64,000 nucleotides of DNA, from assembly GCF_025685685.1 (NCBI RefSeq), contig NZ_JAGSYH010000004.1, positions 434,001-498,000 of the forward strand, given 5' to 3'. The notes below the pieces were generated by a model, which was given only the letters and a program-made list of their open reading frames with translations, was not told the DNA's origin and made no database searches. A program made the translations under genes and the position numbers. This document shows positions 14,669-58,265 of the stretch, in pieces (positions within the stretch are counted from its first letter, which is position 1; each line of letters starts with the position of its first letter). The DNA is from Acidicapsa dinghuensis (GTDB lineage Bacteria; Acidobacteriota; Terriglobia; Terriglobales; Acidobacteriaceae).

Positions 14669-14784
14669 CCTCCAGAAATCCCTGAATGGAAACGTTACCT
14701 TTTCGAGCGCGGTTTGTCCCCGACTCTAAGCACTATCCACTTTACACACTCAATTTGAGCCCCGCTGCGAGAACCTGCCACTTC

Positions 14785-36011: not shown

Positions 36012-36509
36012 ATGGCGATCCGATTCAAATTTAATGGCGAAGAGTGGGAAGCAGATACTCCAGAAGAGGCTATTGCGCTCCGCGCCAAGCTTGAATACTC
36101 GGTTCGATTCCCCCCAGATCCTCATCAGGAGATGGACAAAGAATTTCGGTTCTGGACTCCTGATCGAGTAATGGACGTAATGAACGGGATCGGAAAGCTT
36201 CAACATCGGCTTCTCATGTTTATTTGGGACAACAAGCGAATTTCAAGCACAGAATTACTCGAGAAAATGTGCCTGAAGTCGGAGGTTGCGTTGGCCGGAG
36301 TAATTAGCGGTCTTTCAAAACAACTAAAAGCTTTGAATATCGAGCCCAATCAAGTCTTCCTGATTGATGTGAAGTGGGAAGGAAAGAAGAAAAACAGAAC
36401 CTTTATGCTGAACGACTTTTTTGCAGGTGCTGCAAGTGAGCACAACTGGCCCGAAGCTTGGGCAGCGGAGGTTTTGTGCAGTAACGAGAGTGAAGATAAG
36501 TCGGATTGA
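36012..36509 (+). CDS. probable winged-helix protein, possible autoregulator
   Basis: Family not identified. The 165-residue protein starts with a small beta-rich part (IRFKFNGEEWEADTPEEA). A helical region follows that looks like a winged helix (about 70-140): LLMFIWDNKRISSTELLEKM, ALAGVISGLSKQLKALNI as recognition helix, then strands FLIDVKWEG and RTFMLNDFF. Its base composition is clearly more AT-rich than its neighbours, suggesting recent arrival. It sits inside the insertion that splits trmD from rplS and is driven by the palindromic promoter just upstream, so it may bind those sites. DNA binding is an inference. Confidence 0.65.
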   Translation: MAIRFKFNGEEWEADTPEEAIALRAKLEYSVRFPPDPHQEMDKEFRFWTPDRVMDVMNGIGKLQHRLLMFIWDNKRISSTELLEKMCLKSEVALAGVISGLSKQLKALNIEPNQVFLIDVKWEGKKKNRTFMLNDFFAGAASEHNWPEAWAAEVLCSNESEDKSD

Positions 36510-36916
36510 GTCAAATACACGGACGGCCTAGACGCTGCAACGCCCAGGCCGTAAGGGAAAGAGGGATCACTTGATGAAGCTGAAGATCACAATCAAGGTG
36601 ACGGGGCAGACGGTAGAGATTTCCGTTGAGCCTCCGCGTTAATCTAAACCTCAGAATCAGCGCCCGCTATCTGTGCTAACAGGTAGCGGGACAAACCTAA
36701 AGTGCGGAGTACCCAGGCCCTAACCCACAGATAGTTTGGCGCTTTTCACCGCTCAATGCAAGGAGATAAGGGTGTGACTTGCAGCTCGTGCCAGAGTGCG
36801 TGACATCATCACCGCAATTTCTTAGACAAGCGACATACTAACGGGACATTACTTTGCTCTCTCTCGCTGATTCTCCGTAATGCTCCAAACTCATATCCCT
36901 GCTATTATTCGCTACC
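36510..36916. other. AT-richer intergenic region with two hairpins and a 22-codon open frame
   Basis: ACGGCCT (36523-36529) pairs with AGGCCGT (36546-36552). CCCGCTATCTG (36663-36673) pairs with CAGGTAGCGGG (36680-36690) around a TGCTAA loop, one pair being G-T. Neither is followed by a T-run. A small open frame lies between them. The last 200 bases before 36917 show nothing I can name. Confidence 0.5.
36574..36642 (+). CDS. possible 22-residue peptide
   Basis: ATG to TAA encodes a basic, strand-forming peptide with alternating hydrophobic residues (KITIKVTGQTVEISVEPPR at its end). GAGG lies about nine bases upstream. It is flanked by two hairpins and follows the regulator-like gene by 64 bases. 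The alternation is better than chance would suggest, but 22 codons is too short to be sure. Confidence 0.25.
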   Translation: MKLKITIKVTGQTVEISVEPPR

Positions 36917-37315
36917 ATGTCAGCCCGCATCGACTCCATCTCACCCTGCTTCATCGTCAGCGACGTCACCCAATCCATCGCCTTCTACCGCGACCGCCTC
37001 GGTTTCGAAGTCATGTATCAGGACCCCGAAACCAACCCCTTCTTCGCGATCGTCCAACGTGGCAACATCATGCTCTTCCTTAAGAGCGACCGCGAAGCGC
37101 ATCCCCAGCCAAACCACCTCAACCACCACTACATGAAGTGGGACGCCTACCTCTCGGTCCCCGATCCCGAAGCCTTAGCCGCCGAATTCACCACCAACGG
37201 CGCCATCTTCCTCAAACCCCTCGGCATCACCACCGAAAACCTCTTAGGCTTCGAAATCAGCGACCCTGATCAGTACATCCTCTTCTTCGGCCGCCCTGAC
37301 ACGCCCGCAGCCTGA
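36917..37315 (+). CDS. VOC-family protein (glyoxalase/bleomycin-resistance fold)
   Basis: A 132-residue single vicinal-oxygen-chelate domain pair: SPCFIVSDVTQSIAFYRDRLGFEV at the start, then NIMLFLKSD, the second beta-alpha-beta half with PEALAAEFTTNGA, and GFEISDPDQYILFFGRP at the end. The final EISDPD glutamate is the usual metal ligand, and the DYLS-like strand WDAYLSV supplies the other half. Members are dioxygenases, isomerases or binding proteins for drugs. The substrate cannot be told. It lies in the insertion between trmD and rplS. Confidence 0.85.
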   Translation: MSARIDSISPCFIVSDVTQSIAFYRDRLGFEVMYQDPETNPFFAIVQRGNIMLFLKSDREAHPQPNHLNHHYMKWDAYLSVPDPEALAAEFTTNGAIFLKPLGITTENLLGFEISDPDQYILFFGRPDTPAA

Positions 37316-37402
37316 GCCGATACAACATTCCTCACGCCGAGTCCCGCGATTCCCATGGACGGTTCCGTCGCCTCTCAGCCTGCATCCTCGAAACCAGCTG
37401 AC

Positions 37403-37930
37403 TCAATCGACGGCGGCGAACGCAGGCGCGTGTTTCAGCTCACCTGTCGTAACCGTGAGCGACAGCGAGAGTCTGAGCATCATGAAATGGGGTCCGGCGT
37501 ATGGAGACGTGAAGCCTGCGGCGGCTGGCCGCTCAAAACCGAACCTTTTGTAGTAATTTGGATCACCCAGAACGAAGACTGCACTCCAGCCTTCGCTGCG
37601 GGCGCGTTCAATCGCACTCTGAATCAGAGCTGTTCCAATACCGCTGCGCTGCCTTGCGGGAATTACCGATACCGGTGCAAGAGCCAATGCCGGGAATGGA
37701 GCATCCATTTTCGATAACAGAACATGGGCAACAACTTCTTCGTCATCTTCGGCGACGAGCGAAATCACGCTGTCACCGGCTGCTCGTAATCTTTCAACGA
37801 GTTCCGCCTCAGCCGATTGACCAAAGGCCAATGAAATGACCCGGAAAACGGCCTGCCAGTCGCGGGAGCTTTCATCGCGAATGTCAATCACCACTCGATT
37901 TGAACATGGCGTTATACCGCAAACAAGCAT
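37403..37930 (-). CDS. GNAT N-acetyltransferase (YhbS-like)
   Basis: An acetyl-CoA-dependent acyltransferase of about 165-175 residues. The acetyl-CoA loop is PARQRSGIGTALIQ (Q/RxxGxG/A), preceded by the LAPVSV strand and followed by AVFVLGDPNYYKRFGFE, which marks the YhbS group. The true start is uncertain. ATG at 37930 gives an unconserved leader, and a GTG twelve or thirteen codons later gives VIDIRDES, the usual beginning. The substrate is unknown. It is convergent with the VOC gene. Confidence 0.85.
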   Translation of the reverse strand: MLVCGITPCSNRVVIDIRDESSRDWQAVFRVISLAFGQSAEAELVERLRAAGDSVISLVAEDDEEVVAHVLLSKMDAPFPALALAPVSVIPARQRSGIGTALIQSAIERARSEGWSAVFVLGDPNYYKRFGFERPAAAGFTSPYAGPHFMMLRLSLSLTVTTGELKHAPAFAAVD

Positions 37931-42151: not shown

Positions 42152-42406
42152 TTAAGCAGCAGCGGGCGCCGCAGCCGGGAACTTCTTCACCAGTTTCCCG
42201 ACCGTCTCTGACATCTGCGCGCCAACGCCCACCCAGTACTGGATGCGGTCGTGCTTCAAGTCAACGGTTGCCGGGTTAGTGCGGGGGTTGTACGTGCCAA
42301 CCACTTCGATCGAACGCCCATTGCGAGCACGATCCTTCTCAATCACAACCACACGATAATAGGGCTTCTTGGTGGCGCCTACGCGCGCCAGGCGAATCAT
42401 GACCAC
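42152..42406 (-). CDS. rpsP: 30S ribosomal protein S16
   Basis: Early assembly protein of the 30S body. The 84-residue protein starts with the family signature MIRLARVGATKKPYYRVVV and continues with the RNGRSIEVVGTYNP segment. First gene of the rpsP-khpA-rimM-trmD run on the minus strand. GTC ATG is the start at 42406. Confidence 0.97.
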   Translation of the reverse strand: MVMIRLARVGATKKPYYRVVVIEKDRARNGRSIEVVGTYNPRTNPATVDLKHDRIQYWVGVGAQMSETVGKLVKKFPAAAPAAA

Positions 42407-44205: not shown

Positions 44206-44916
44206 ATGAACCGTGAATATCACAAGTGGTACTCATCCCGCCTCGGCCGCGACATGGAGCTGCAAGTCTTCGGCCATACCGGCGTGCCCGTCCTCGTCTT
44301 CCCCACCTCCGGCGGACGTTTCTTTGAGTTCGAAGACCGCGGCATGGTTTCATCCATCGGTGGAAAAATCGACCGCGGCGAAATCCAGCTCTACTGCGTC
44401 GACTCCGTCGATATGGAAAGCTGGTACAACCGTAACGTCTCGCCACGCTGGCGCATCGCCCGCCACGTCCAGTACGAGGACTACCTCATCCACGAAGTCG
44501 TCCCCCTCATCCGCAACAAAAACTGGAACCCGAACCTTGTCGCCCTCGGCTGCAGCTTCGGAGGCTTCCACGCCACCAACATCGCCTTCCGCCATCCCGA
44601 CGTCTTCACCGGCCTGCTCTCCATGTCAGGCGCATTCGACATGTCGCGATTCATGCATGGCTACCACGACGACGACGTCTACTTCAACACACCGCCTCAG
44701 TACCTCAAAAACCTCTCCGACCCGTGGTTCTTCGAGCGCTACCGCCGCAACACCTACATCCTCGGCACCGGTTGGGACGACCAATGCCTCGGCGACAACC
44801 AATACCTCGACGGCATCCTGAGCTGGAAAGAAATCCCCCACAAGCTCTACATCTGGGACACATGGAACAGCCACGACTGGCCTACTTGGAAGATGATGAT
44901 GAACGAGTATCTCTGA
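44206..44916 (+). CDS. esterase-family protein, alpha/beta hydrolase
   Basis: A 236-residue cytoplasmic hydrolase. It shows GHTGVPVLVFPTSGGRFFEFEDRGMV at the start, the nucleophile elbow ALGCSFGGFHA (GxSxGG), TYILGTGWDDQC near the acid position and the catalytic His in NSHDWPTWKMM at the C-terminus. It belongs to the short form of the putative-esterase family, often annotated simply as esterase. GAGG precedes the ATG. It is divergent from the longer esterase at 42990, and the two may act on related substrates. Confidence 0.85.
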   Translation: MNREYHKWYSSRLGRDMELQVFGHTGVPVLVFPTSGGRFFEFEDRGMVSSIGGKIDRGEIQLYCVDSVDMESWYNRNVSPRWRIARHVQYEDYLIHEVVPLIRNKNWNPNLVALGCSFGGFHATNIAFRHPDVFTGLLSMSGAFDMSRFMHGYHDDDVYFNTPPQYLKNLSDPWFFERYRRNTYILGTGWDDQCLGDNQYLDGILSWKEIPHKLYIWDTWNSHDWPTWKMMMNEYL

Positions 44917-44934
44917 CAATCCTCGTTTCCCAAT

Positions 44935-46173
44935 CTAGGGAACATTCGGATAGACGGTGATGCTCAAGTTATCAATGTTGTGATCGGCCTCAAAAGGCTC
45001 TGGTCCGTACCGCGGCGTGTTTTCATGGTAGCCGCGCACAGACGCACCGACAGCGTATTTCCCAGCCGGAACGTTCTTGAACTCGAAGTGCCCATCTGCG
45101 CCAATCAGGACGGTCTGCGAATCCCACACCGTTTCCGATGTCAGCGTCACCCGCATCCCCTCCTCAATGGCCTTTTTATCGCTGGCAATGACTGTGCCAC
45201 GAATATACAAGCCGGGCTCAATAACCATGTCCGCAGTCTGCACATGCTCTTCGTCTTTGCTGATGCGAACCCCAATCGGGCTGACCGCGCCACGGCTCGA
45301 AACGGAATCCATCGTGGGATAAACATACCAATCCACGGGCGCAGGAACATTAGGAATAGAGAAGTTTCCCTTCTCGTCCGTGCCGATGCGCACCACTTCA
45401 TATGGATTGCCGATTAGTTTGAGATCCATGCCGAAACCACCACCGTCCTTGGCAATGAGACCGATCTGCGCGCCCGACACTGGTTTACCATCTTGCATTA
45501 GACGGCCCGTGATGGTTCCCCCAACACTAAGAGCTACAGCATGGCGCTCCGGCCCTGTCTCTAGAACGGCAAACTTCGGGGCGAAAGCACGCGCTTCCAC
45601 TTCCAGCAGCATCTTTGGCGTGGGCTTCGCGTAGCTAATTTCGAATTCGCCCTGTTTGTTAGAAACGGAGATGGGTTCAAGCCCGGGCACCGTGCCGTAG
45701 GTGCTTCCTTTCCCGATAATTAGACCTGTGGGATTGATAACTGCGTACGAAATGGGCGAACCGTCCTCATCAACAACTCGCCCGCGCACGGTCCCGCTGA
45801 AATCGGTGACGGCGGGCTTGGTGGCCAATTTCAAGGTCACCGTCGGAGCTTTGAACGGATCGATATGCTGGGTAATCTCTGGAATGTATCCGTCGCGCGC
45901 GGCCAGCAGTGTAAACCATAGGTCCGGTGAAAGATCTTTGAATTTGAATGCACCTTTGGCATCGGTGATGGCATGCTTGCCACAGTCAATGTAACAACTC
46001 GGACAGAATGTGCTGTAACCGAACTTGACACCTGCGTGATAAACCATGACGGTCACACCCGCAAGAGGATCGCCATTCGCATCGACAACTGTACCGGAAA
46101 GACCAGGATGTGTATCAGCAGCTGCGAGCGATGCAGTAACACAGAAGATCGCGACAAGTAGAAGTGCCTTCAC
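44935..46173 (-). CDS. secreted carboxypeptidase-regulatory-like repeat protein with a Cys motif
   Basis: A 412-residue exported protein. The signal peptide ends near residue 19 (SLAAADTH). Four or so CarboxypepD_reg-like sandwiches follow, each with G.V.D.DG.P...V and GKFS/GEFE phrases, ending with FEFKNVPAGKYAVGASVRGY. The first module carries an unusual insertion with FCPSCYIDCGKH, which could bind metal or form disulfides. No enzyme motif. Its stop is 19 bases past the convergent esterase gene. Confidence 0.78.
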   Translation of the reverse strand: MKALLLVAIFCVTASLAAADTHPGLSGTVVDANGDPLAGVTVMVYHAGVKFGYSTFCPSCYIDCGKHAITDAKGAFKFKDLSPDLWFTLLAARDGYIPEITQHIDPFKAPTVTLKLATKPAVTDFSGTVRGRVVDEDGSPISYAVINPTGLIIGKGSTYGTVPGLEPISVSNKQGEFEISYAKPTPKMLLEVEARAFAPKFAVLETGPERHAVALSVGGTITGRLMQDGKPVSGAQIGLIAKDGGGFGMDLKLIGNPYEVVRIGTDEKGNFSIPNVPAPVDWYVYPTMDSVSSRGAVSPIGVRISKDEEHVQTADMVIEPGLYIRGTVIASDKKAIEEGMRVTLTSETVWDSQTVLIGADGHFEFKNVPAGKYAVGASVRGYHENTPRYGPEPFEADHNIDNLSITVYPNVP

Positions 46174-46258
46174 TTGAACCTCTTCAAACAGTCTCGTTTA
46201 GCAGAAGAAGTTTATACCTTTGCAATTCAGCTGGACGACATCTCTTTCGCACTCAATC

Positions 46259-46324
46259 TCACCGCTTCGTCCTCACCTCAGCCCCGTACTGCATCAGCAG
46301 CCGACCCGCTTCAACCGTGTCACC
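46259..46324 (-). pseudogene. remnant of an alpha-L-fucosidase gene 3' end
   Basis: On the minus strand the last 21 codons before a TGA read GDTVEAGRLLMQYGAEVRTK R, preceded in frame by a stop. The end of the intact fucosidase at 51104 reads PLLTLYGAEVRTKR, eleven of the last thirteen residues identical. At the DNA level 46258-46289 matches 51103-51134 with two differences, in the same orientation. No start or upstream domain survives. Confidence 0.65.
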
Positions 46325-46339
46325 TCAACCAGACCGGTT

Positions 46340-47953
46340 CTAGTGAATAGCAACCTTATTTTTCGCGCTCTCCTTCGGATTATTCCGCCGAAGCAGCAAA
46401 GTCAGTGGAATCATCAACAGCGAGAGTACGCACAAAATAAAGTAGACATCCACGTATGCAAGAAGGCTTGCCTGGGCTTGCAGCCGATTGTAGATTTGCG
46501 CCTGGGCAAGATAGTTTGCATTTGCCGTGCCGAAAAAGCCCGAGAGGGAATTTTGTAATGACCTGAGCTGAGTCTGAAATACAGGACTGCTGGGCGTTAC
46601 ATACTTCAGCAGTTCATGAGCGTGGAACTGTCCCCTCTCCGTTATTGCAGCCCCGGTTAAGGAAATCAGGATGCTTCCGCCAATATTCCGGACAAAGTTA
46701 ATGAGACCGGAGATCTGGTTACTCTTCTCCGAGGGCATCCCGAAATAACCAGCAGTCGTCACGGAAATAAATACAAACGGAATAGCCACGACCTGTATCA
46801 CCCTCAGCCACGAATTGGTCTCAAAGCTCAATCCCAGGTTGAGATGTGTTGCGGTATAGAAATACCCCGCGGCATAGACTGCAAAACCAAAGAGAATAAG
46901 ATTGCGCGCCGGGATTCTCGCAAGAGCCTGCCCAGCCATCGGCATCAAAACCAGCAGAATAACGCCTCCCGCAGAGAGAGACAGGCCGGCGACCGTTGCC
47001 GTGTATCCGAGGCTTGCCTGCTCAAATTGCGGTTGCAGCACCGTGGATGCGTTAAGCAAACCTCCGGTGATCAGCATCAGAAAACAACACACCGCGAAGT
47101 TCTTGGATTTCAGAAGCTTCAAGTCCATAAGTGGCTGTTTAGGGCGCCATTCCCAGATAATCAGCGCCAGAAACGTAATTGCAAAAGTAATACCGAAGAC
47201 TTGAATGAAGGATGACTGGAACCAGTCTTTTTCCTCGCCCTTGTCCAGCATGATCTGCAAAGACGCCATCGACAGGACAAGCAAAATCAGCCCCGGCGAA
47301 TCGATCCTGGATAGATTCTTCTTATCGGCCTTCATCCACGGCGGGTCCTCGACCAGACGCTGCGTCAGAAGGATCGACAATATTCCCACTGGAATGTTGA
47401 TATAGAAAATCCAGTTCCAGTTGTAGTTATCGGTAATCCATCCGCCGAGCGTTGGTCCAATTGACGGAGCAAGCACGGCAACGAGCCCATAGAGAGAAAA
47501 GGCCAGTCCCCTCTGATGAGGCTCAAAGGAATCAGCCATGATGGCCTGAGCCATCGGCTGGAGACCGCCGCCACCAGCCCCCTGAATGACGCGGCATAGC
47601 AAAAGTATGGGCAGCGTGGGCGCAATCCCGCACAAGAAAGAACTGATGGTAAAGACGATCAGGCATAGCTGAAAAAAACGCTTGCGTCCGATAATGCTTG
47701 CCGCCCAACCACCCATTGGCAGCACGACAGCATTGGAAACAAGATAGGCCGTAAGCACCCAGGTGCTCTCGTCCTCGCTCGCGCCAAGACTTCCCGCAAT
47801 ATGAGGAAGCGCTACATTGGCAATCGAGGTGTCCAGCACCTCCATAAATGCGCCAAGAGCTACGGTAGCCGCGATCAGCCACGGATTGATTGCTGGCTTC
47901 CATTGCTGTGTGACCGTAACCGATTGTTCCAATACCAGAGTCTCTGTTGCCAT
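46340..47953 (-). CDS. DHA2-family multidrug efflux MFS transporter (EmrB/QacA type)
   Basis: A 537-residue proton-driven exporter with fourteen predicted helices. Motifs are LGAFMEVLDTSIANVALPHIAGSL in helix 1, GRKRFFQLC after helix 2, RVIQGAGGGGLQPMAQAI in helix 4-5 and the GPTLGGWITDNYNWNWIFYINIPVG antiporter motif. The ATG at 47953 is chosen. An upstream in-frame start at 48103 would overlap the divergent tetR gene and its operators. Divergent from a TetR regulator, its likely repressor. No EmrA-type adaptor is adjacent. Confidence 0.93.
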   Translation of the reverse strand: MATETLVLEQSVTVTQQWKPAINPWLIAATVALGAFMEVLDTSIANVALPHIAGSLGASEDESTWVLTAYLVSNAVVLPMGGWAASIIGRKRFFQLCLIVFTISSFLCGIAPTLPILLLCRVIQGAGGGGLQPMAQAIMADSFEPHQRGLAFSLYGLVAVLAPSIGPTLGGWITDNYNWNWIFYINIPVGILSILLTQRLVEDPPWMKADKKNLSRIDSPGLILLVLSMASLQIMLDKGEEKDWFQSSFIQVFGITFAITFLALIIWEWRPKQPLMDLKLLKSKNFAVCCFLMLITGGLLNASTVLQPQFEQASLGYTATVAGLSLSAGGVILLVLMPMAGQALARIPARNLILFGFAVYAAGYFYTATHLNLGLSFETNSWLRVIQVVAIPFVFISVTTAGYFGMPSEKSNQISGLINFVRNIGGSILISLTGAAITERGQFHAHELLKYVTPSSPVFQTQLRSLQNSLSGFFGTANANYLAQAQIYNRLQAQASLLAYVDVYFILCVLSLLMIPLTLLLRRNNPKESAKNKVAIH

Positions 47954-48013
47954 CGATGAAAAGCCCTCAGAATCGGCATCGGCTGCATGCAAGAGGATCC
48001 ATTTCCACGCAAC

Positions 48014-48034
48014 GATACCGTATGGTACTGTATC
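48014..48034. promoter_or_regulatory. candidate TetR operator in the efflux/tetR spacer
   Basis: GATACCGTATGGTACTGTATC is a 21-bp near-palindrome: eight of ten pairs match around a central G. Its size and position, between the divergent efflux and tetR genes, fit a TetR dimer site. Confidence 0.55.
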
Positions 48035-48067
48035 TGATGTATTCCTCAATGACCGGATGCAGAAAAA

Positions 48068-48090
48068 CATCGGTAAGATAAATACCGATG
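48068..48090. promoter_or_regulatory. second palindrome overlapping the tetR start codon
   Basis: CATCGGTA (48068-48075) and TACCGATG (48083-48090) are perfect complements separated by seven bases. The ATG of the right arm is the tetR start codon. It could be a second operator giving tight autorepression, or an mRNA hairpin that hides the start. Confidence 0.5.
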
Positions 48091-48792
48091 AAAACAACCT
48101 CACCAGCGAAAAGAGAAACCGAAAGTAAAAAAGGCGCGAGTGCGTCCATTCAAACGCGGCTTGATGATGACCGTGTTTCCGAGCTTCTGGATGTGGCTGC
48201 GGAAGTATTTATCGAGCATGGCTTCGAGGGAGCCAGCACCAACGAGATCGCACGCCGTGGCAATTGCTCAAAAACGACTCTTTATGCCCGCTACCCCACC
48301 AAAGAAAAGCTGTTTCTCGCCGTAGTGGAACGACGCATGGAGTCGATTCTGAGTGAGTTTGCAACAACGTTGCAGCCTGATCCACCCATTGAACAGACGC
48401 TCAACGAATATGGCTTCGATCTTCTTCAACTGGTTCTTTCCGAAAACCAACGCGGAATGGTCAGGGTGATAAGCATGGAATCATCGAAGTTTCCGCATCT
48501 GGCAAAGCGCTTCTATGAGCTCGGCCCTGGCCGCGGCGTTGCTTTCCTCGCCAGCTACATGGAAGAACAAATCAGGCGCCACCGCCTGGTCAAGGAAAGC
48601 CCTCAGATGATGGCAGAACATCTGATGAGCCTCATTACCGGTGGATACGTTCGCTGGACAATGCTCGGGCTTCCCGACAATGTCAGTCTGAAAGAAAAAA
48701 AACGTCGCGTCAGTGCCGCCGTTGAAATGTTCCTGCGTGCCTACTCCACCCGCATTGGTGGCCCCACGAAGTATTCGCACGCAGGACAATGA
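48088..48792 (+). CDS. TetR/AcrR-family transcriptional regulator
   Basis: A 234-residue repressor. The helix-turn-helix is at about 35-75 (LLDVAAEVFIEHGFEGASTNEIARRGNCSKTTLYARYPTKEKLF). The C-terminal ligand-binding part resembles the AefR-like group (GMVRVISMESSKFPHLAKRFYELGPG). It is divergent from the DHA2 efflux gene and probably controls it and itself through the palindromes at 48014 and 48068. An N-terminal basic tail of about 25 residues precedes the domain. Confidence 0.92.
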   Translation: MKTTSPAKRETESKKGASASIQTRLDDDRVSELLDVAAEVFIEHGFEGASTNEIARRGNCSKTTLYARYPTKEKLFLAVVERRMESILSEFATTLQPDPPIEQTLNEYGFDLLQLVLSENQRGMVRVISMESSKFPHLAKRFYELGPGRGVAFLASYMEEQIRRHRLVKESPQMMAEHLMSLITGGYVRWTMLGLPDNVSLKEKKRRVSAAVEMFLRAYSTRIGGPTKYSHAGQ

Positions 48793-49000
48793 TTGAAAGG
48801 TGCTCCACGCGGGGGTTGGATATTCCTCAGCAGGGATGCTCAATACTGCTCGCCCCCCACGCTCTCTCGAGATCGAAGCCGCGTTTGACTCTGCATGTAA
48901 CCCAATCGGAACAATCATCACCCATCTCTAAAGCCCTCAGGTTCATTCGCGGCATCCAACAGGCCGAGTTCTTTCTGCGCCAAATGGGAGGTGCAGCGTA

Positions 49001-50305
49001 ATGACAGCCTTGTTGCTGAGCATCGTAATTTCCACCGGTTGGGCTATTGTTGGTGGCCTTTGCCTGCTTTTTGTTCTCCTTTTTTTGCTCGCTGGAGTCA
49101 TCGGGCCCGTACCTCAGTACTCGATCTCCTGTCCGGATGATCTGCCTGCAAACGGCTCCGATGGCTTTCTGAATGTGTTGGAGTCATTGGTGGACGCCAG
49201 GATCAACAGGACAGGCACTCTGGACGTGTTGACCAACGGGCCATCTTTCTACACCGCTGCACTGGATGCCATGCGCTCGGCGCAACAGAGCATCTGTCTT
49301 GAAGCCTATGTCTTTCAGCCCAGTGAGATCGCCCGTCTCTATATTGAGACCATGGCAGAGCGCGCGAGGGCCGGCGTTCAGGTCAATCTGGTTCTTGATG
49401 CCTTTGGTAGCTGGAAAACAAACACAGCATTTCTCAAGCAGTTGATAGATGCCGGAGGAAGGATCGAGCGGTACAACAAGATTCGCTGGTACAACGTGTC
49501 CCGAGTAGATAACCGCACGCACCGCGAGTTGCTGATCGTGGACGGACGCATCGGCTTCATCGGTGGCGCGGGCGTAGCAGATCAATGGTGGAAAGGAGTA
49601 GGAAAGAGCCCCCGATGGCGTGATACGCTCGTTCGCGTGGAAGGAGAGGCTGTCACGAATCTTCTGGCAACCTTTGCTGAAAATTGGCTCACCAGCCATG
49701 GCGAACTGCTCTGCGGCCCGCGATACTTTCCGGAAATTCGCTGCGACAACAAAATCGTTGCGATGATTATCAACAGCACACCGACACCTGGGGGCTCAAC
49801 CCGCGCCAGGGTTCTTTTTCAGATGTTGCTCGCATCGGCGCAACGAACTATTTCCATCACCACGCCATACTTCCTGCCTGACAAAGGATTGGTGCAGGAG
49901 CTCTGTCGCGCCATCGAGCGAGGCGTGCGCCTCAGGATCCTCGTGCCGGGTCGCAAGTCAGACCATGCGCTCACGCGAAGCACAAGCCGAGGTGGCTATG
50001 GGCCGTTCTTGCGCGCAGGGGCTGAAGTTTTTGAATATCGGCCGTCGATGATTCACGCCAAGATTTTGGTCGTCGACGGGTCCTGGGCAGTCGTCGGCTC
50101 AACTAATTTCGACAACCGCTCCTTCGGCATCAACGACGAAGTCAACATGGCCGTGCGTGATGTGGATTTTGCAGCGCGTCTGGATCGTGACATGGATCAT
50201 GATCTGACGGAAAGCAGGCGCGTATCATTGGCAGACTGGGAACATCGGCCCTTGACGGAACGCGCCACGGAGTTGCTGGGATGGATCATCGAGCGGCAAC
50301 AGTAA
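49001..50305 (+). CDS. clsB: cardiolipin synthase B-like phospholipase-D-family protein
   Basis: A 434-residue membrane-anchored PLD-superfamily enzyme. An N-terminal hydrophobic segment (about 5-36) anchors it. The second active-site motif is canonical: HAKILVVDGSWAVVGSTNFDNRS. The first reads HRELLIVDG (His174-Asp181), with Glu where the standard HxKxxxxD has Lys. The rest, including GGAGVADQWW, fits ClsB/ClsC relatives that make cardiolipin from phosphatidylglycerol and another phospholipid. Its stop overlaps the start of a YbhP-like gene, reproducing the clsB-ybhP pairing of enterobacteria. Confidence 0.85.
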   Translation: MTALLLSIVISTGWAIVGGLCLLFVLLFLLAGVIGPVPQYSISCPDDLPANGSDGFLNVLESLVDARINRTGTLDVLTNGPSFYTAALDAMRSAQQSICLEAYVFQPSEIARLYIETMAERARAGVQVNLVLDAFGSWKTNTAFLKQLIDAGGRIERYNKIRWYNVSRVDNRTHRELLIVDGRIGFIGGAGVADQWWKGVGKSPRWRDTLVRVEGEAVTNLLATFAENWLTSHGELLCGPRYFPEIRCDNKIVAMIINSTPTPGGSTRARVLFQMLLASAQRTISITTPYFLPDKGLVQELCRAIERGVRLRILVPGRKSDHALTRSTSRGGYGPFLRAGAEVFEYRPSMIHAKILVVDGSWAVVGSTNFDNRSFGINDEVNMAVRDVDFAARLDRDMDHDLTESRRVSLADWEHRPLTERATELLGWIIERQQ

Positions 50306-51063
50306 TGAAACAAGGCGCACAATCGAGCCGGTTGCGAGTAGTCACCTACAACATCCACAAGTGCCGCGGCTTCGATCGCCGGGTTCTGCCGAAACGCATC
50401 ATTTCAGTCCTTCAAGAGTTGAATGCGGACGTGATGTGCCTACAGGAAGTAGTGAACGCTCCGGACCACGGTCTCCGCTATGATCAGGCCGGCGACATTG
50501 CACGCGCTTTTCCTGACTTCACGCCTTGCTTCGGAGCCAATCGCAAAATTTATAACGGCACCTATGGCAATCTCACGCTCAGTCGTCTTCCAGTACTTGC
50601 ATGGAAAAACACCGACATCACGCAAAAGCGTGAACCCCGCGGCGTCCTGCGAACGGATTTGTCCCTCGGCGGAGACCGGCTCCTGCACACCTTCAACGTC
50701 CATCTCGGCACCGGTTACATGGAGCGCAGGTATCAGGCAAAACGTCTGATGAGCCAGGACATCCTTGGCGATCCGCAACTGCACCAATCCCGCCTCGTAC
50801 TCGGAGATTTCAACGAGTGGACAAACGGCCTGACAACAAGACTCATGCGCGAGAGCTTCAGCACTTTCCAGCCTCGGCATGCCTTGAAGTTCCCAAATAC
50901 CTTCCCAGGCATGCTGCCCTTCACCACGCTGGATCACTGCTATTACGAGCCCCCGCTCGAACTGCAGGAAACGATGCTGTGGCGAAGCAGGACCGCACTC
51001 GTGGCCTCCGATCACCTGCCGCTGCTGGCAGATTTCCAGCTTCCTGCATTTTCCGTTTCCTGA
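50305..51063 (+). CDS. YbhP-like endonuclease/exonuclease/phosphatase-family protein
   Basis: A 252-residue metal-dependent phosphodiesterase fold. Active-site residues are Asn16 (TYNIHKCRG), Glu48 (CLQEVV), Asp and Asn in LGDFNEW, and the SDHLPL Asp-His pair near the end. The ATG overlaps the cardiolipin synthase stop (TAATG). Homologues next to clsB are of unknown substrate. A role in phospholipid handling is inferred from this pairing only. No signal peptide is visible. Confidence 0.87.
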   Translation: MKQGAQSSRLRVVTYNIHKCRGFDRRVLPKRIISVLQELNADVMCLQEVVNAPDHGLRYDQAGDIARAFPDFTPCFGANRKIYNGTYGNLTLSRLPVLAWKNTDITQKREPRGVLRTDLSLGGDRLLHTFNVHLGTGYMERRYQAKRLMSQDILGDPQLHQSRLVLGDFNEWTNGLTTRLMRESFSTFQPRHALKFPNTFPGMLPFTTLDHCYYEPPLELQETMLWRSRTALVASDHLPLLADFQLPAFSVS

Positions 51064-51103
51064 TCAACCATGGCATCGAAGTCCGCTCCGAAGAACACCT
51101 ACC

Positions 51104-52789
51104 TCACCGCTTCGTCCGCACCTCAGCCCCATACAACGTCAACAGCGGATGCTGAATCACAGCTCGAAACTCATACGTCCCCTTGGTATCCAGCCCGCTC
51201 ACCGTTGTCGTAAACTGCCCAATCTTCGTCACCGTCTGTATCGGAGTCGCCACCCACACCGCATTCCGCGAATTCGCATCTTCCCCCGCAATCGACCGGT
51301 ACTCAAACCCTACCTGCAGCGCAGACTGATCCCCCATATCCAGCACATCACCCGTAAACACTTCGCCCTGCCCCGAAGCCGCCGCACTCACCGTCTGCAC
51401 CCGCGGAGGCGCAAGCGCCGGCTCCGCATTCGTAATCTTCAACACCACCGGATTCGGCCAGCGAAAGTTATCCTGCAGCCTCTGCGCCGCAAGCGCACGA
51501 ATATGCAGCCCATCCTTCTCCTGGTGCCACGTCGTCTTCGGCACAATCTCTGGGTGATACTCAACCACCTCGTCGCTCTGCCCCAGCACGCTCACCTGCG
51601 TCTTATCCGTAGCCTTCACCGAGTGCAGCACAAACTCCTTCCACGTAGCCCGCGGCCACGGCGCGTCGCTCTCCACCGTCGCATACAGTGCGCTCGAATC
51701 CTTCTTCTTCGTAAACCAGATATTCCCCTCGTTCGTGATCACCCACGGCCTCACCGCATAAATCGCATCTGAGTTCACAAACATCCACTCCGCAATCTCG
51801 CGCAGCCGCTCTTCTTCCTCAATCGGCAATTCACCATTCGGCTTCGGCCCCACATTCAGCAGCAGGTTGCCGCCCTTCGCGCGCGTCTCCACCAGCAGCC
51901 GAATCAGCTCTCCACCACTCTTGTAGTGCTCGTTCTGCGGCTGGTACTGCCACGCCGTACCCATCGTCATGCACGTCTCCCACGCCCCCGGCATCGGCAT
52001 CCCCGGTACCGTCAACTCAGGCGTCTTGATCGCTCCGCGCGTCACGATAATGTTCGGGTCGATCTTCCACGCCAGATCCCGCAACCCTGTCGCATCCCCA
52101 TCCAGAAACAGCGCATCGATCTTTCCATACTTCGTCAGCAGCTCCCGTATCTGCTCCTGGTCATACTTCATAAACTCCGGATTGCTCTTCGGCTGTACCG
52201 CCGGCACAGCCCTCTCGATCCGAATCCCATGCTGATGCAGCCACCAGAAATCATCCGGCGAGTAGTACACCCCCGTCGCAATCCCCTGCGAACGAAACGC
52301 ATCAAACACTTCCTTCGTAATATCGCGATGAAACGGCGTATGCATCACGCCAAACGGAGTCGTCGCCGTATCCCACATCGCAAAGCCCGAGTGGTGCTTC
52401 GTCGTGAACATCACATATCGCACCCCCGCCAGCTTCGCCAGCCGCGCCCAGTCCAGCGGACGAAACTGATCCGGATCGAACGTCTGCGGCAACTCGCTGA
52501 AATACCGATCCGTATACTCCTTTGAAGCTCCCACCAGCGAGTGGCTGATCACCACCCCAAGCTGCCCATCCACGCCCCAGTGAATAAACAACCCAAATCC
52601 CTGATCGCGAAACCACTCCAGCCGCTCCGCCTTATTCAGCGATCCCTTCTCCGGATCGCTCTCCAAAGCAATCGACCCCGGTGCGACCGTCCCCGAAGAA
52701 ACCTGCTGCGCCAACAACGGCCTCGCCCAGACACCCCCGATCACCAGCCCCAACGACAAAGCAACAACACCATCCCTCAATCGTTCCAT
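51104..52789 (-). CDS. secreted alpha-L-fucosidase, GH29
   Basis: A glycoside hydrolase removing terminal L-fucose. The signal peptide (about 1-27 from the ATG at 52789) is followed by the GH29 barrel: WFRDQGFGLFIHWG, RYVMFTTKHHSGFAMWDTA, GVYYSPDDFWW and the nucleophile region IDALFLDGDA, then NLLLNVGPKPNGELP. A C-terminal beta domain completes about 561 residues. The acid/base Glu is not conserved enough to point to. A fragment of a second copy lies at 46259, on the other side of the efflux and cardiolipin synthase genes. Confidence 0.9.
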   Translation of the reverse strand: MERLRDGVVALSLGLVIGGVWARPLLAQQVSSGTVAPGSIALESDPEKGSLNKAERLEWFRDQGFGLFIHWGVDGQLGVVISHSLVGASKEYTDRYFSELPQTFDPDQFRPLDWARLAKLAGVRYVMFTTKHHSGFAMWDTATTPFGVMHTPFHRDITKEVFDAFRSQGIATGVYYSPDDFWWLHQHGIRIERAVPAVQPKSNPEFMKYDQEQIRELLTKYGKIDALFLDGDATGLRDLAWKIDPNIIVTRGAIKTPELTVPGMPMPGAWETCMTMGTAWQYQPQNEHYKSGGELIRLLVETRAKGGNLLLNVGPKPNGELPIEEEERLREIAEWMFVNSDAIYAVRPWVITNEGNIWFTKKKDSSALYATVESDAPWPRATWKEFVLHSVKATDKTQVSVLGQSDEVVEYHPEIVPKTTWHQEKDGLHIRALAAQRLQDNFRWPNPVVLKITNAEPALAPPRVQTVSAAASGQGEVFTGDVLDMGDQSALQVGFEYRSIAGEDANSRNAVWVATPIQTVTKIGQFTTTVSGLDTKGTYEFRAVIQHPLLTLYGAEVRTKR

Positions 52790-52962
52790 CGCAATCACTC
52801 CAGGCAACACCACAAAGTCACGTCCATCTAACATCGATCACCATACAGGATTTCCTTCGCATCCCCGCCCTGGCGAGTTAACCTTACCTAACGCAGCAGG
52901 TCCAAACCCACCGCCTGCGGACCGCAGTTCCGCGTGCAATTCCCGTCATCCTGGGCCAGACG

Positions 52963-54942
52963 ATGAAACCATCCGCATCTCGATCGCTGCGTCTCTTCAT
53001 CGCCGTCCTGCTATGCCTCGCGTTCGCACCTCATCCATCACGCGCGCAGACCTTCGATCTCGACTCCGGCCGTCTTCCCATTACCCAGATCGACTCCGCG
53101 TGGCGCTTCCATCTCGGAGATAATCCCCAGTGGTCGCAGCCGGCCTTCGACGATTCAACCTGGCAAACACTCAAGCCCACCGAAGACTGGACAACCCAGG
53201 GCATTCCTACCGGGACCGAGTTTGTCTGGTTCCGTTTCCATCTCCGCGTCGCGGCACACACAGGCTCTCTCGTAATCGAGCTCCCCACCATCCCCAAAAG
53301 CTATCAACTCTTCGCCGATAGCCAGCTCATTGCTCAGGTCGGCACGCTGCCTCCAGGACCAGCCCACAACGTCATCGGCGCGTACCGGGTCTTCACCATA
53401 CCCGTCAACTCCGGCCCACACCCCAAAGACGTCGCCATCACTCTGCGCCTCTGGCAGGACCCCCACTTCGCCGGCACGCGCCCCAGCATCGTCGAAGGCT
53501 CAGTATTCATCGGCAGTTCCGACACCATTCTCGATCACTTCACCGCCACCAAATCCGCCGACCTGCTCTCCGATGGCTCCATCTACACCATCGATGTCGT
53601 CAAGCTCATCGTCGGTCTCTCCGCTGCCATACTTTTCTGGCTCACCCGCGAACGCTTTTATCTCTGGTACGCCATTACCCTCCTTGTTGACGCATGCTTT
53701 TTCCTGAGCGACCTCATTTCCGCGCATCAGGCGTGGGACTTCTCCCTCTACACCTACTCCAACATCCTCCTCGACATCGTCACCGCCGTCTTCTTCATCC
53801 TCTTCATCGTCGACGCGCTCTATCCCGGCAGTTGGAAGCCGGCCATCCTTCCAGCGCTCCTCATGCTCATCGCCGACGGTGCAATCGTGCTCGTACTGGC
53901 ATTCAACTTCTCAAAGACCGCTGCCGATATCACCTACTGCGTCTGCGAAGGATCTTCCAGCCTCGTCCTCGTTTGGTACCTCATCCGCAGCCTCCGATCC
54001 GGTAACTTCTACGCGAAGCTCCTCATCTTCCCGCTCGCAATTCACACCCTCGGCGATCTCGGAAACAACATCGGTTACTTCCTCCTAGACTTGAACATCC
54101 GCTTCGGGCTCAAGCTGATCCCGACTCGCTACTTCGTGTTCCATCATCCTTTCGCCTTCAATTTCGCGCAGCTCGAGACCCTCATCGCTCTTTTTGGATT
54201 TCTGGCCGCCCTCGTCTATCGTTTCGCCATCACCAGCCGCGAAAAGCAGCGTCTGGCTTCCGCGCTCCAGGCCGCGCACGACATCCAGAACAAGCTCGTT
54301 CCCGTCGACATTCCAACCATCGGCGGCCTCCGCGCCGAGATAGTCTATCGAGCCGCCGAAGAAGTCGGCGGAGACTTCTGCCAGGTCTTGCCCCGTCCCG
54401 ATGGCTCCATCCTCGTCGCCATCGGCGATGTCAGCGGCAAGGGCCTGCAGGCAGCCATGCTCGGCGCATTAGCCGTTGGCGCCTTGCGCTCCGTAGCTGA
54501 TGAGCTCCTGCCACCCGCCGCTGCCCTCGAGCGTCTCAACCAGGTTCTGTTGCGCACACAGAGCGAGGGCTTCATCACCTGTCTCTGCATGGTTCTCACG
54601 GAACTGGGCGAAGTCACCATCGCCAATGCCGGCCATCTCTCCCCCTACCTCGACGGGGCAGAAATCTTCGTCGAAAGCGGCCTTCCGCTCGGCATCATCT
54701 CCGGAGTCTCCTATGAACAGCGCGAATTCGAACTGCCCGCTGTCGCACGCCTCACCCTGCTCTCCGATGGAGTCGTAGAAGCCCGCTCACGCACTGGCGA
54801 GCTCTTTGGCTTCGAGCGCACCTCCGAGCTTAGCCGCCGTCCCGCCTCTGAAATCGCCGACACAGCCCACCACTTCGGCCAGGAAGACGACATCACCGTC
54901 ATCACCCTCGACTGGAATGCCGTCTACCTCATCCCCGCATGA
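52963..54942 (+). CDS. membrane receptor-like SpoIIE (PP2C) serine phosphatase
   Basis: A 659-residue signal protein. It has a signal peptide (1-29), a periplasmic jelly-roll domain (about 35-195, with WRFHLGDNPQW and SYQLFADSQLIAQVG, like glycosidase sugar-binding folds), seven or so membrane helices (about 210-425), a short coiled linker (REKQRLASALQAAHDIQNKLVP) and the phosphatase. The last has VGGDFCQV, IGDVSGKGLQAA, ANAGHLSPYL, LLSDGVVEAR and GQEDDITVI, so all metal-binding aspartates are present. It probably dephosphorylates an anti-sigma-factor antagonist in response to an external ligand. No such partner gene is adjacent. Confidence 0.88.
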   Translation: MKPSASRSLRLFIAVLLCLAFAPHPSRAQTFDLDSGRLPITQIDSAWRFHLGDNPQWSQPAFDDSTWQTLKPTEDWTTQGIPTGTEFVWFRFHLRVAAHTGSLVIELPTIPKSYQLFADSQLIAQVGTLPPGPAHNVIGAYRVFTIPVNSGPHPKDVAITLRLWQDPHFAGTRPSIVEGSVFIGSSDTILDHFTATKSADLLSDGSIYTIDVVKLIVGLSAAILFWLTRERFYLWYAITLLVDACFFLSDLISAHQAWDFSLYTYSNILLDIVTAVFFILFIVDALYPGSWKPAILPALLMLIADGAIVLVLAFNFSKTAADITYCVCEGSSSLVLVWYLIRSLRSGNFYAKLLIFPLAIHTLGDLGNNIGYFLLDLNIRFGLKLIPTRYFVFHHPFAFNFAQLETLIALFGFLAALVYRFAITSREKQRLASALQAAHDIQNKLVPVDIPTIGGLRAEIVYRAAEEVGGDFCQVLPRPDGSILVAIGDVSGKGLQAAMLGALAVGALRSVADELLPPAAALERLNQVLLRTQSEGFITCLCMVLTELGEVTIANAGHLSPYLDGAEIFVESGLPLGIISGVSYEQREFELPAVARLTLLSDGVVEARSRTGELFGFERTSELSRRPASEIADTAHHFGQEDDITVITLDWNAVYLIPA

Positions 54943-55054
54943 CACAATCCTTTCCGCAAGGCTCTCTTCTCGCTACAACAGAAGCTGAAATCTTCGTTTA
55001 GCCGTTCATTCACTCGGAATATGCCGCCCATGCGACCTTGCTATTATCGAAGTC

Positions 55055-55462
55055 GTGAGAATCCGCGTGGATCCAATTTACGGGTGGGGCTGGTCCTACC
55101 GTAATGGAGTGACCGCAAGGGTGCCGCCGCCGTTTATCCTGGACGTAGTGATCGCTGAGAATTACGGGCTCAAAAGAGTATTAGGCCGAGTCGAGGAACC
55201 TTCGCATCCGCTCGCATCGATGTGGGTATTTTTGTCTCCGATCATTGCGGGAAACGATTGGAGTCACTCCCATGTCTGCGCATTTAAAGGTCAGCCATCT
55301 TTACCCGACGAAGTAGATAAAGGTCTCGACAATGAAGACAAGGGAAATGTCTTAGGCAAAGTGATCGCTGCTGCAGACATCACAGGATTTGCTCATGTCG
55401 ATATTGATCCAATCCCGAATAACCGGCCAGCTAGAAACTATCCTCGAGCCGACGAAAGTTGA
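55055..55462 (+). CDS. hypothetical protein
   Basis: Not recognised. A 135-residue open frame beginning with GTG, without a good ribosome-binding site. It reads like a folded protein at first (VDPIYGWGWSYRNG, PFILDVVIAENYGLKRVLGRVEE) and becomes acidic later. Its composition is less GC-rich than both neighbours, as if acquired. Its stop is two bases from the convergent stop of the CHAT-TIR gene. It may be part of that locus or a chance frame. Confidence 0.4.
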   Translation: MRIRVDPIYGWGWSYRNGVTARVPPPFILDVVIAENYGLKRVLGRVEEPSHPLASMWVFLSPIIAGNDWSHSHVCAFKGQPSLPDEVDKGLDNEDKGNVLGKVIAAADITGFAHVDIDPIPNNRPARNYPRADES

Positions 55463-55464
55463 CC

Positions 55465-56592
55465 TCACGCATCCGGTCGTTTCCCCGTAATCCCCCAAAC
55501 CAGCCGCTCCATCGGATCCAGATCCACCCTCCGGAAATCCACCCACGTCATCGAAGACAAAAACACCGGCAGCTCCGGCGTCATCATCGCATCCGCCAGC
55601 ACCACTGGAATCACCGGCACTCCCCGCTTCACAAACGCCCGTAGAAACCCCATGATCTCCTGCTCCTGCCACGGCCCAATCCCCGCCGATCCCACGCAAA
55701 CCGCAGCCGCACGAATCTGGTGAATCTGCTGCTCCAGCAGCGGCATCCACGGAACTCCAGGCGGCAGCTCCTCCACATCCAGCCACGGCAATATACCACG
55801 TTGCTTCAGCTCTTCCCCGATTCGCCGCACCGCTGGCTTATCCGCCGAATTATGGCACAGGAACACATCAAACGCATTCGCATCACGCTTGCGCCGCAAC
55901 ACTTCGCGCCACTCCGCCAACACCCGCGACGTAGCCGTCTGCCCCACACCCGGCGCCTGCGTTTTCTCGTCCGTCGCCCTTGATGGCAAAATCGCACTCT
56001 GCGGCTCCGCGCTTTTCACAGCAACCAGCCCAAGCCCCGGCGCACCGCTATTCGACGCAGCCGCCGTCAAGTCCATTGCCAGTTGAATCGGCGTCAATCC
56101 CCCAGCAATCGCACCATACACCTTCGCCAGCAAAATTCCCTGCGCATGCTCGTTCAATCGCGGAGCCACCACCACATGCTTCACTCCATGCGCCAGCATC
56201 TCTCGCGCCGCAATCTCCAGATTCGTTGGCCCGCTCGCCGCTGCCTGCAATACCACCAGCGCCGGAGCCTTCTTCGCCGTCATCACTGCAGCCAGAGCTT
56301 GCACCGACATCTTACCCGCGCGCCCGTCCGAAGCCTCAAGCGCCACCGTCGCATAGTGTGCCGCGGCCATCTCCTGTCCGTGCACCACAATATGCACCAC
56401 ATCGCGCTCCACCGCCTCCAGCCGCTCGCGCAGCTTTGCCGCCGTAGCTGGTTGCAGCCGCTCATACGCAGCCGCGCCGCGCTTGCGCAACCCCTCCAGC
56501 ACATCGGCCATTTGCTGCCATAGAAAATCCGCATCGTACCGGTAAAGATCCGTCGGATTCGCCAGCACCGCTAATGCTCGCAGCAACGCCAT
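55465..56592 (-). CDS. CHAT-like (inactive) plus TIR domain protein
   Basis: A 375-residue two-domain protein. Residues 1-190 match a CHAT caspase-like fold: LRALAVLANPTDLYRYDAD start, VVHIVVHG with His71, and the LQAAASG motif, where the catalytic Cys of CHAT proteases is replaced by Ala118. After a linker, residues 240-375 are a TIR domain: FDVFLCHNSADK, GILPWLDVEELPPG and GIGPWQEQEI, in which Glu312 occupies the position of the NAD-cleaving glutamate. The combination suggests a sensor or scaffold joined to an NADase effector, as in bacterial defence proteins. It follows an M48 peptidase gene after 27 bases. Confidence 0.8.
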   Translation of the reverse strand: MALLRALAVLANPTDLYRYDADFLWQQMADVLEGLRKRGAAAYERLQPATAAKLRERLEAVERDVVHIVVHGQEMAAAHYATVALEASDGRAGKMSVQALAAVMTAKKAPALVVLQAAASGPTNLEIAAREMLAHGVKHVVVAPRLNEHAQGILLAKVYGAIAGGLTPIQLAMDLTAAASNSGAPGLGLVAVKSAEPQSAILPSRATDEKTQAPGVGQTATSRVLAEWREVLRRKRDANAFDVFLCHNSADKPAVRRIGEELKQRGILPWLDVEELPPGVPWMPLLEQQIHQIRAAAVCVGSAGIGPWQEQEIMGFLRAFVKRGVPVIPVVLADAMMTPELPVFLSSMTWVDFRRVDLDPMERLVWGITGKRPDA

Positions 56593-56619
56593 TCCCTCAT
56601 ATTGCTTTGAAAGATAAAT

Positions 56620-57615
56620 CTACCGCACAAACGGCGGTGGCATCCCCGGTGGCAACGGCGGAGCTGGCGGTGGCCCATACCCCGTCACCGCATTCCGGCA
56701 TCGCGGACAATACGCTTCCGTGCCCTTCAACTGATTCCCGCACACATTACAAAACTTCATCGCCTGCGCAGCTCCATACGCCGGCCCCTGCGGATGCTTC
56801 AGCACTTCCTCATACTGCCCGCTCTCGATCCACTGCAGCAATTGCTGCGCCCGCGCCACCGTCCACGGATGCATCGCGCCCACCGAGTTAAGCCACTTCG
56901 CAATCTTCGAAATCGTATCCGCATCCAGTGCCTGAAAATCCCGCGCCTGCTTCAGAAAATCCTCAGTGTTCACGCTGGCAAAATACTTCGGCGGCAATCC
57001 CGCCAGCTTCATCATCGTGCGCCACGCCACCTCGGCATCCTGGCATCCCAGCAGCCCCGCCCGATCCGCTGTAAACTCCGACATACGCTTCCAGTTCAGC
57101 AGCGCCATCTGCATTCCTGCGCTCAACAATTCGCCAATGCCAAACGTCATGCTGCCCACCACACCAGCTATCAGCGGCAGAAACTCGGCAATCTGGTAGT
57201 ACAGCACATGCCGGCTCTTGATGTGCCCCAGCTCATGCGCAATCACAAAGGCCATCTCATACGGAGCAAGCTGTTCCACAGCCGTTGTGGTGAGCACAAT
57301 CAACGGTCGCTCCACGCCCACCGTGAACGCATTGATCTCACCGCCAGAAGCGATATACAGATCCACCTCGATCGGCACATCCAGCCGCTCTTTCATCACC
57401 AGGTAGATCTGGTACAGATCCGGAAAACTATCTTGCGTCACCTTCAGATAGCTTCCCGTCAACTGCACGCGCAGAAACCGCTCGATCCCCCACGCATTCA
57501 GCTTCGTGATCAGCGTGTCAAATCCAGCCGTATGCGTCAGCGCATTCAACGCCGCCGCATCGCTCGGATGCTCGTAAGCCTGTAGCCGCAATCCTTCCAG
57601 CTTGATCCCCGCCAT
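56620..57615 (-). CDS. M48-family metallopeptidase with C-terminal zinc ribbon
   Basis: A 331-residue protease. The active site is HELGH at 127-131, with the third zinc ligand Glu180 in RMSEFTADRAG, the usual M48 spacing. Two hydrophobic stretches after HELGH (about 140-175) could be membrane-associated. Near the C-terminus FCNVCGNQLKGTEAYCPRCR is a four-cysteine zinc ribbon, followed by a Pro-rich tail. No signal peptide, so the catalytic domain probably faces the cytoplasm. First gene of a two-gene unit with the CHAT-TIR gene. A peptidase that might process or be controlled by its neighbour is an inference. Confidence 0.88.
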   Translation of the reverse strand: MAGIKLEGLRLQAYEHPSDAAALNALTHTAGFDTLITKLNAWGIERFLRVQLTGSYLKVTQDSFPDLYQIYLVMKERLDVPIEVDLYIASGGEINAFTVGVERPLIVLTTTAVEQLAPYEMAFVIAHELGHIKSRHVLYYQIAEFLPLIAGVVGSMTFGIGELLSAGMQMALLNWKRMSEFTADRAGLLGCQDAEVAWRTMMKLAGLPPKYFASVNTEDFLKQARDFQALDADTISKIAKWLNSVGAMHPWTVARAQQLLQWIESGQYEEVLKHPQGPAYGAAQAMKFCNVCGNQLKGTEAYCPRCRNAVTGYGPPPAPPLPPGMPPPFVR

Positions 57616-57752
57616 CGCGCCATTCTCCGGTGTCCAACAGCATAACTCCCCACATCATCCGCGAGAAGCGGTCTTACAAACTCGAAGCAAACTCCGTAAC
57701 CGGAAGCATTTTGCCTGTGCGATCATGGCTCGTAGCCCAAAGGAGAACGCAC

Positions 57753-58265
57753 GTGTCCGCTTACATCGCTCTTCTCCGCGCCGTCAATGTCGGTGGCACC
57801 GGCAAGCTCCCCATGACCGACCTCAAAGCCATGTGTGAAGAACTCGGCTTCAAATCCGTCAAGACCTACATCGCCAGCGGCAACGTAGTCTTCCTCTCCG
57901 CAAAATCCGAACCGCAGGTAAAGAAAGCTCTCGAAAAAGCCCTCGAAGCCTACGCCGGCAAGCCCGTCGGCGTCCTCGTCCGCACCGCCGCAGAAATGAC
58001 CGCCGTCGGCTCCAACAATCCTTTTTCTGAAATGCCCGGCAACAAAACCGTCGCCATCTTCCTCGACGGCCCACCAGCCGCCAATGCGCTCTCCACCGCT
58101 AAAAATCAGGTCAGCGAAGAGCTTCGCCTGGGCACCCGCGAAATCTACGCCTACTACCCCGACGGTCAAGGTACATCGAAACTCCAGATCCCCGCAGCCA
58201 AAACCGGCACAGCCCGCAACATGAACACCGTAGCCAAACTAGCCGAAATGGCCGCCGCCCTGTAG
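57753..58265 (+). CDS. DUF1697 protein
   Basis: A 170-residue protein of the DUF1697 family: YIALLRAVNVGGTGKLPMTDLKAM, SVKTYIASGNVVF and the C-terminal ARNMNTVAKLAEMA, which is the best conserved block. The function is unknown. The start is the GTG at 57753, supported by AAAGGAG eight bases upstream. Longer readings add unlike sequence. It is convergent with the MoaD-like gene, with a type-A repeat in between. Confidence 0.87.
   Translation: MSAYIALLRAVNVGGTGKLPMTDLKAMCEELGFKSVKTYIASGNVVFLSAKSEPQVKKALEKALEAYAGKPVGVLVRTAAEMTAVGSNNPFSEMPGNKTVAIFLDGPPAANALSTAKNQVSEELRLGTREIYAYYPDGQGTSKLQIPAAKTGTARNMNTVAKLAEMAAAL

Follow-up and report, generated by a model that had tools for sequence, protein, structure and literature searches.

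A 64,000-nucleotide stretch of Acidicapsa dinghuensis DNA, referred to here as the window, contains a short duplication of the 3' end of an alpha-L-fucosidase-family gene. The duplication is real, local and unique, and it sits at a junction in an ordinary patchwork insertion spot between two conserved genes. The repeat and its uniqueness are established, together with an insert-free site in relatives, a foreign-like composition and the separate occurrence of TetR-efflux and ClsB-YbhP relatives. On balance it is probable, though far from assured, that this variable spot was filled stepwise and that the repeat is a scar, left when a short piece of the 3' end of the fucosidase gene was duplicated where DNA was joined.

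The locus serves as an example of how, in an Acidobacteriaceae-type chromosome, genes for glycosidase, efflux and membrane-lipid functions come together in the space between two conserved neighbours. This gathering has taken place without a recognised mobile element, and the edge of one module is legible at the level of single bases. The repeat itself would be important only if it were a usable recombination site.

A variable site between EstB and DUF1697

The left anchor of the site is EstB, an esterase-like gene on the plus strand (44206..44916; Pfam PF00756), which has a counterpart in each of the 14 congeners (71-85% DNA identity) and shows 82-85% amino acid identity in three of them. The right anchor is a DUF1697 gene (PF08002), listed as a plus-strand open reading frame at 57630..58265, with DNA homology in congeners from about 57754. 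A DNA search of the window between 40.5 and 60 kb against 15 genus genomes, its own included, together with the fetched junctions, delimits a genus-variable region of about 12.8 kb (44917..57753). EstB and DUF1697 are adjacent, or at most about 80 bases apart, in five of the 14 congeners (G001, G002, G003, G005 and G011), and thus the 12.8 kb, including the fucosidase gene, is extra here. Other DNA of about 1-3.1 kb lies between the two genes in six of the 14, amounting to about 1-1.5 kb in G004, G006, G007, G008 and G012 and to 3.1 kb in G010. DUF1697 was absent from the 2.5-3.4 kb read beyond EstB in G009, G013 and G014. The bare EstB-DUF1697 junction would represent the ancestral state. Among the fetched gaps (L155-L161), that of G010 holds a 659-aa multicopper-oxidase-like gene, and those of other congeners hold small ArsR-like and SRPBCC-like genes, all named by eye.

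Integration hotspots are variable insertion spots between conserved neighbours. The present site resembles them in that two conserved genes, which adjoin in 5/14 congeners, enclose different cargo in 6/14. It differs in its content, where genes for glycosidase, efflux, lipid and signalling functions form a patchwork, and in that no integrase or transposase family, or other mobility gene, was recognised among the nine genes scanned in the inserted region, small open reading frames aside. The insert-free site has no fucosidase gene, and the repeat is part of a larger variable spot. The earlier note, which had centred on the repeat, had looked to related genomes for an empty site with one fucosidase end or for tandem fucosidase genes; neither arrangement was found.

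Modules of the inserted region and their composition

Next to EstB lies CpD412 (44935..46173, minus strand; PF13620), encoding a 412-aa carboxypeptidase-regulatory-like protein. It was found in none of 60 relatives at E<=1e-40 and in four of 397 other genomes of the family at E<=1e-50, with at most four candidates scored per genome; the best matches, at 68-69%, are in genus g51. Among the genomes searched, relatives of CpD412 thus occur only outside the genus. The family searches drew 398 genomes from a larger group and scored the best candidates of each (up to four or up to seven), so that absences in them are incomplete. In one genome (G383), two CpD412 homologues (L190 and L191) are each followed by a very similar 430-aa open reading frame, and L190 also contains frames which, judged by eye, resemble an IS110-type transposase and a relaxase.

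The next module consists of an EmrB/DHA2-type efflux permease and a divergent TetR-family (AefR-like) regulator (48088..48792, plus strand; PF00440, PF14246). The pump is listed as a minus-strand frame of 587 aa, which scores 415.9 bits against TIGR00711 (cut-off 230.2) and, from its family, would be a multidrug-type efflux permease. As listed, the frame reaches 48103 and so begins inside the TetR gene; a start at about 47953 (MATETLV..., equivalent to residue 51) is likelier, given a homologue of 537 aa in the genome G295, and would place the gene at 46340..47953. Judging from its divergent position, the adjoining TetR protein may control the pump. Sequence identity places the closest relative of the module outside the genus, in G295, which belongs to another genus of the family (g51): a blastn match of 2423 bp (46338..48758) is continuous at 82% DNA identity, and the same two genes stand side by side there, with amino acid identities of 88.8% for the pump and 79% for TetR. 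The nearest congener pumps are 61-62% identical and one pump of another genus (G031) is 70% identical. The G295 match ends two bases past the pump stop codon, so that the left copy of the repeat lies just outside the module. A pump homologue is found within short flanks in 9 of 19 TetR homologue loci, the window's own excluded. The G295 locus (L225) also contains a distant GH29-family gene (13553-15232; 29% identity), on the same strand as the related pump and about 1.4 kb downstream from it, whose C-terminus is unlike the left copy.

Two overlapping plus-strand genes follow. The first (49001..50305) encodes a ClsB-like protein of the phospholipase-D fold, cardiolipin synthase type, with two stretches matching PF13091, and the second (50281..51063) a YbhP-like member of the exo/endonuclease/phosphatase family (PF03372). 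The ClsB-like protein scores 252.1 bits against TIGR04265 (cut-off 290); NCBIfam scores likewise fall under their cut-offs, at 181.1 for ClsB (cut-off 281) and at 42.8 for the nearest YbhP-type model (cut-off 144). The pair is best described at family level only, as a putative phospholipase-D-fold lipid enzyme with a phosphatase-family partner. The gene types given for the block in the earlier note are accordingly right at family level, while the names ClsB and YbhP stay under these cut-offs. A YbhP-like gene adjoins the ClsB homologue in all ten fetched loci (L195-L204), where ClsB is 58-67% identical, and in three of six more distant ClsB loci. No match to the pump or the TetR regulator of the window was found in any of those ten loci, at 20 kb each. 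The 4.8-kb block had been treated as a single unit; it comprises at least two modules, as relatives of the TetR-efflux pair and of the ClsB-YbhP pair occur apart. A plasmid origin was considered and rejected: ClsB gave 395 plasmid records, all below 60% identity, and CpD412 gave five, at 24-25%.

The remaining stretch begins with the intact GH29 fucosidase gene (51104..52834, minus strand; PF01120, 232.7 bits), which was found in two of 60 relatives at E<=1e-60. In G003, the GH29 orthologue is on contig 3, and contig 5 carries the EstB-DUF1697 site, which is free of insert there. The genome G000 has nine GH29 matches above the Pfam cut-off. A conserved fucosidase neighbourhood was also sought and dismissed, since, of the loci taken from genome_contigs, only two, L017 (SpoIIE, at most 42%) and L020 (pump, 35%), also match another of the eleven window proteins used. 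Beyond the fucosidase gene are a SpoIIE-phosphatase gene (52963..54942, plus strand; PF07228), a TIR-domain gene (55465..56592, minus strand; PF13676) and an M48 metallopeptidase gene (56620..57615, minus strand; PF01435). The adjoining TIR and M48 genes (55465-57615), with weak PADLOC matches only, may form a defence-related pair.

The composition of the DNA changes within the region. GC skew is mostly about -0.2 to -0.37 in the flanking DNA, and most of the block has values from +0.04 to -0.08. At third codon positions CpD412 has a skew of +0.07 and the four block genes range from -0.09 to -0.22, whereas EstA, EstB, GH29, SpoIIE and TIR range from -0.58 to -0.79. By third-position skew and GC, all five genes between 44935 and 51063 are foreign-like, and this composition reaches leftwards past the left repeat copy. 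Because it also covers CpD412, the foreign DNA does not have its edge at the left copy. Change-point analysis places the left boundary best at 44.85 kb (44.71-45.61 within 3 log units), not at the left repeat copy, and the right boundary best at 50.77 kb (50.34-51.10), a range that allows for an edge at the end of the fucosidase gene. A weak skew does not in itself prove foreign origin: bS16, a small conserved gene at 42152-42406, is an exception among its neighbours at -0.10, and, among the 49 long open reading frames of the window, those at 7961, 24916, 36012 and 37403 also lie at or above -0.23. A second patch of low GC3 and reversed third-position skew, at 36012-37930, is possibly another acquired stretch.

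The direct repeat

Both copies of the repeat lie on the minus strand and point the same way, at a distance of 4,845 bp. The left copy occupies 46258..46304, with a 32-bp core at 46258-46289, and the right copy, which is the 3' end of the GH29 gene itself, occupies 51103..51149, with its core at 51103-51134. The cores are identical at 30/32 bases, and the similarity claimed in the earlier note, of 32 bp with two differences in the same orientation, is borne out by the alignment. The best ungapped alignment extends over 47 nt with 40 matches (85%). A search of the whole 6.2-Mb genome with 46240-46340 returned the query itself and the right copy only. Allowing up to three mismatches, a 25-bp core occurs at exactly two places in the genome and at none in 14 congeners; a reversed-pattern control gave no places in all 15 genus genomes. 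The similarity is therefore not a widespread or dispersed repeat, which was the finding that the earlier note had named as fatal to its proposal.

Uniqueness extends to other fucosidase genes. Their 3' ends were compared in 74 of 75 GH29 sequences, the window included (one was dropped, its stop codon not being reached within set limits), and 61 of the 74 loci had at least 2 kb of downstream sequence. A close second copy of the gene's own 3' end turned up in the window alone; the next best locus (L067) reaches 24/32. The core was also absent from 29 further loci scanned, those of G295 and the CpD412 homologues included, where the best match was 22/32.

Several other explanations of the left copy were tried and set aside. 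It was not imported with CpD412, as it was not found beside the CpD412 homologues, nor with the TetR-efflux pair, as it was not found downstream of the G295 pump. There is no RNA gene at the repeat, those of the window being a tRNA-Lys (21 kb) and a small SRP RNA (61 kb). A terminator scan gave no terminator-like site at either copy.

Readings of the left copy

Among integrative elements there are some whose attachment site is a gene's 3' end. It has to be considered, therefore, whether a circle carrying the 32-bp core joined the fucosidase 3' end by site-specific, Campbell-type integration, leaving attL- and attR-like copies, with the recombinase acting in trans or since lost. The geometry fits this reading and is the likeness to such elements: four genes of cargo lie between two direct copies of the 3' end of a gene, and the fucosidase gene has stayed intact, although the copies may not mark both ends of the cargo. 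The similarity also peaks in the 32-bp core and drops outside it. Other observations speak against it. The four genes that separate the copies include no recognised recombinase family, the two modules have relatives that occur independently of each other, and the core was found neither near those relatives nor in the 14 congeners. None of the 73 other GH29 3' ends has a comparable second copy, and the foreign-like composition continues past the left copy to CpD412. Integration of this kind is thus considered unlikely. The viral contigs searched contained no exact match to the core, which counts against integration and against a phage origin.

The second branch of the earlier note, in which two tandem fucosidase genes recombined, would make the left copy the remnant of a paralogue, the downstream gene having been replaced by the block with only its last codons left. 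Both copies are on the same strand, stop codon aligns with stop codon, and the nine final residues are identical, the matching residues being LL and YGAEVRTKR; three of the seven differences between the copies are synonymous (counted by hand). That 21 codons of a GH29-like gene survive, as the earlier note put it, goes too far: the frame of the left copy is open for 21 codons to its stop (GDTVEAGRLLMQYGAEVRTKR), but the similarity covers only about 15 of these codons and ends abruptly, and neither gapped nor ungapped alignment continues upstream into the fucosidase. A His-Pro pair near the GH29 C-terminus is invariant in all 69 relatives covered (of the 74 loci, five gave alignments that ended short of the C-terminus), while the last residues vary. 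The left copy reads Gly-Arg in place of His-Pro, keeps an invariant Gly, and yet shares the variable C-terminal residues with the neighbouring GH29 protein. A paralogue should keep family-invariant residues, and the missing His-Pro thus disfavours a tandem remnant. By hand count, the seven differences fall 3/3/1 at codon positions 1/2/3, which is not coding-like when set against 126/59/322 for the comparison of GH29 with the G003 orthologue (P = 0.011 for such a low number at position 3, a figure based on just seven differences). With no tandem GH29 tail at the 73 other loci, this branch is disfavoured and a tandem remnant appears quite improbable. The comparison points instead to a short copied stretch rather than a worn-down second gene.

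Two further readings fare worse. It is very unlikely that the 32-bp core serves integrase-less cassettes as a functional attachment site, with the recombinase encoded elsewhere in the genome and the efflux and cardiolipin modules forming a cassette array. That the region upstream of the 412-aa gene resembles the fucosidase 3' end by chance, which the shortness of the stretch might allow, can practically be discounted, given a genome-wide E of 2.4e-8 for the second copy, no match at up to three mismatches in 100 shuffles of the window and none in the 14 congeners.

Stepwise filling of the variable spot, with the repeat as a scar, accommodates what the first branch of the earlier note had foreseen, namely that the block entered beside a duplicated gene end. 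That branch gains from the foreign composition and from the 82% DNA match of the TetR-efflux pair in another genus; it falls short in that the block is made up of more than one unit, that foreign-like DNA continues beyond the left repeat copy as far as about 44.9 kb, and that EstB-DUF1697, the vacant site, lacks a fucosidase gene. As CpD412, which lies beyond the left copy, shares the foreign-like composition, one insertion between the copies is insufficient and at least two events are needed. In the proposed sequence, separate cargoes would have entered the EstB-DUF1697 spot step by step: the 412-aa gene, the TetR-regulated EmrB-type pair related to that of another genus, the ClsB-YbhP-like pair and the fucosidase-SpoIIE-TIR-M48 stretch. 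DNA would have been joined beside the fucosidase stop codon, some 32-47 bp from the 3' end of that gene being copied at the junction, and the left copy may have been non-coding from the outset or have decayed neutrally later. The order of events, and the making of the copy at the moment of joining, are what we infer; neither was observed directly, because no genome has the fucosidase and one tail at this locus.

Joining of foreign DNA through short homology, or illegitimately, is of a known kind, and here too the joining may have relied on short homology or on repair-type copying and not on a dedicated recombinase. The likeness consists of a short homologous stretch at one junction with no recombinase recognised; the difference is that copying to the other side is not seen in any intermediate. 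Upstream of the 32-bp core, 10/15 bases still match, which hints at a homology longer than a minimal junction.
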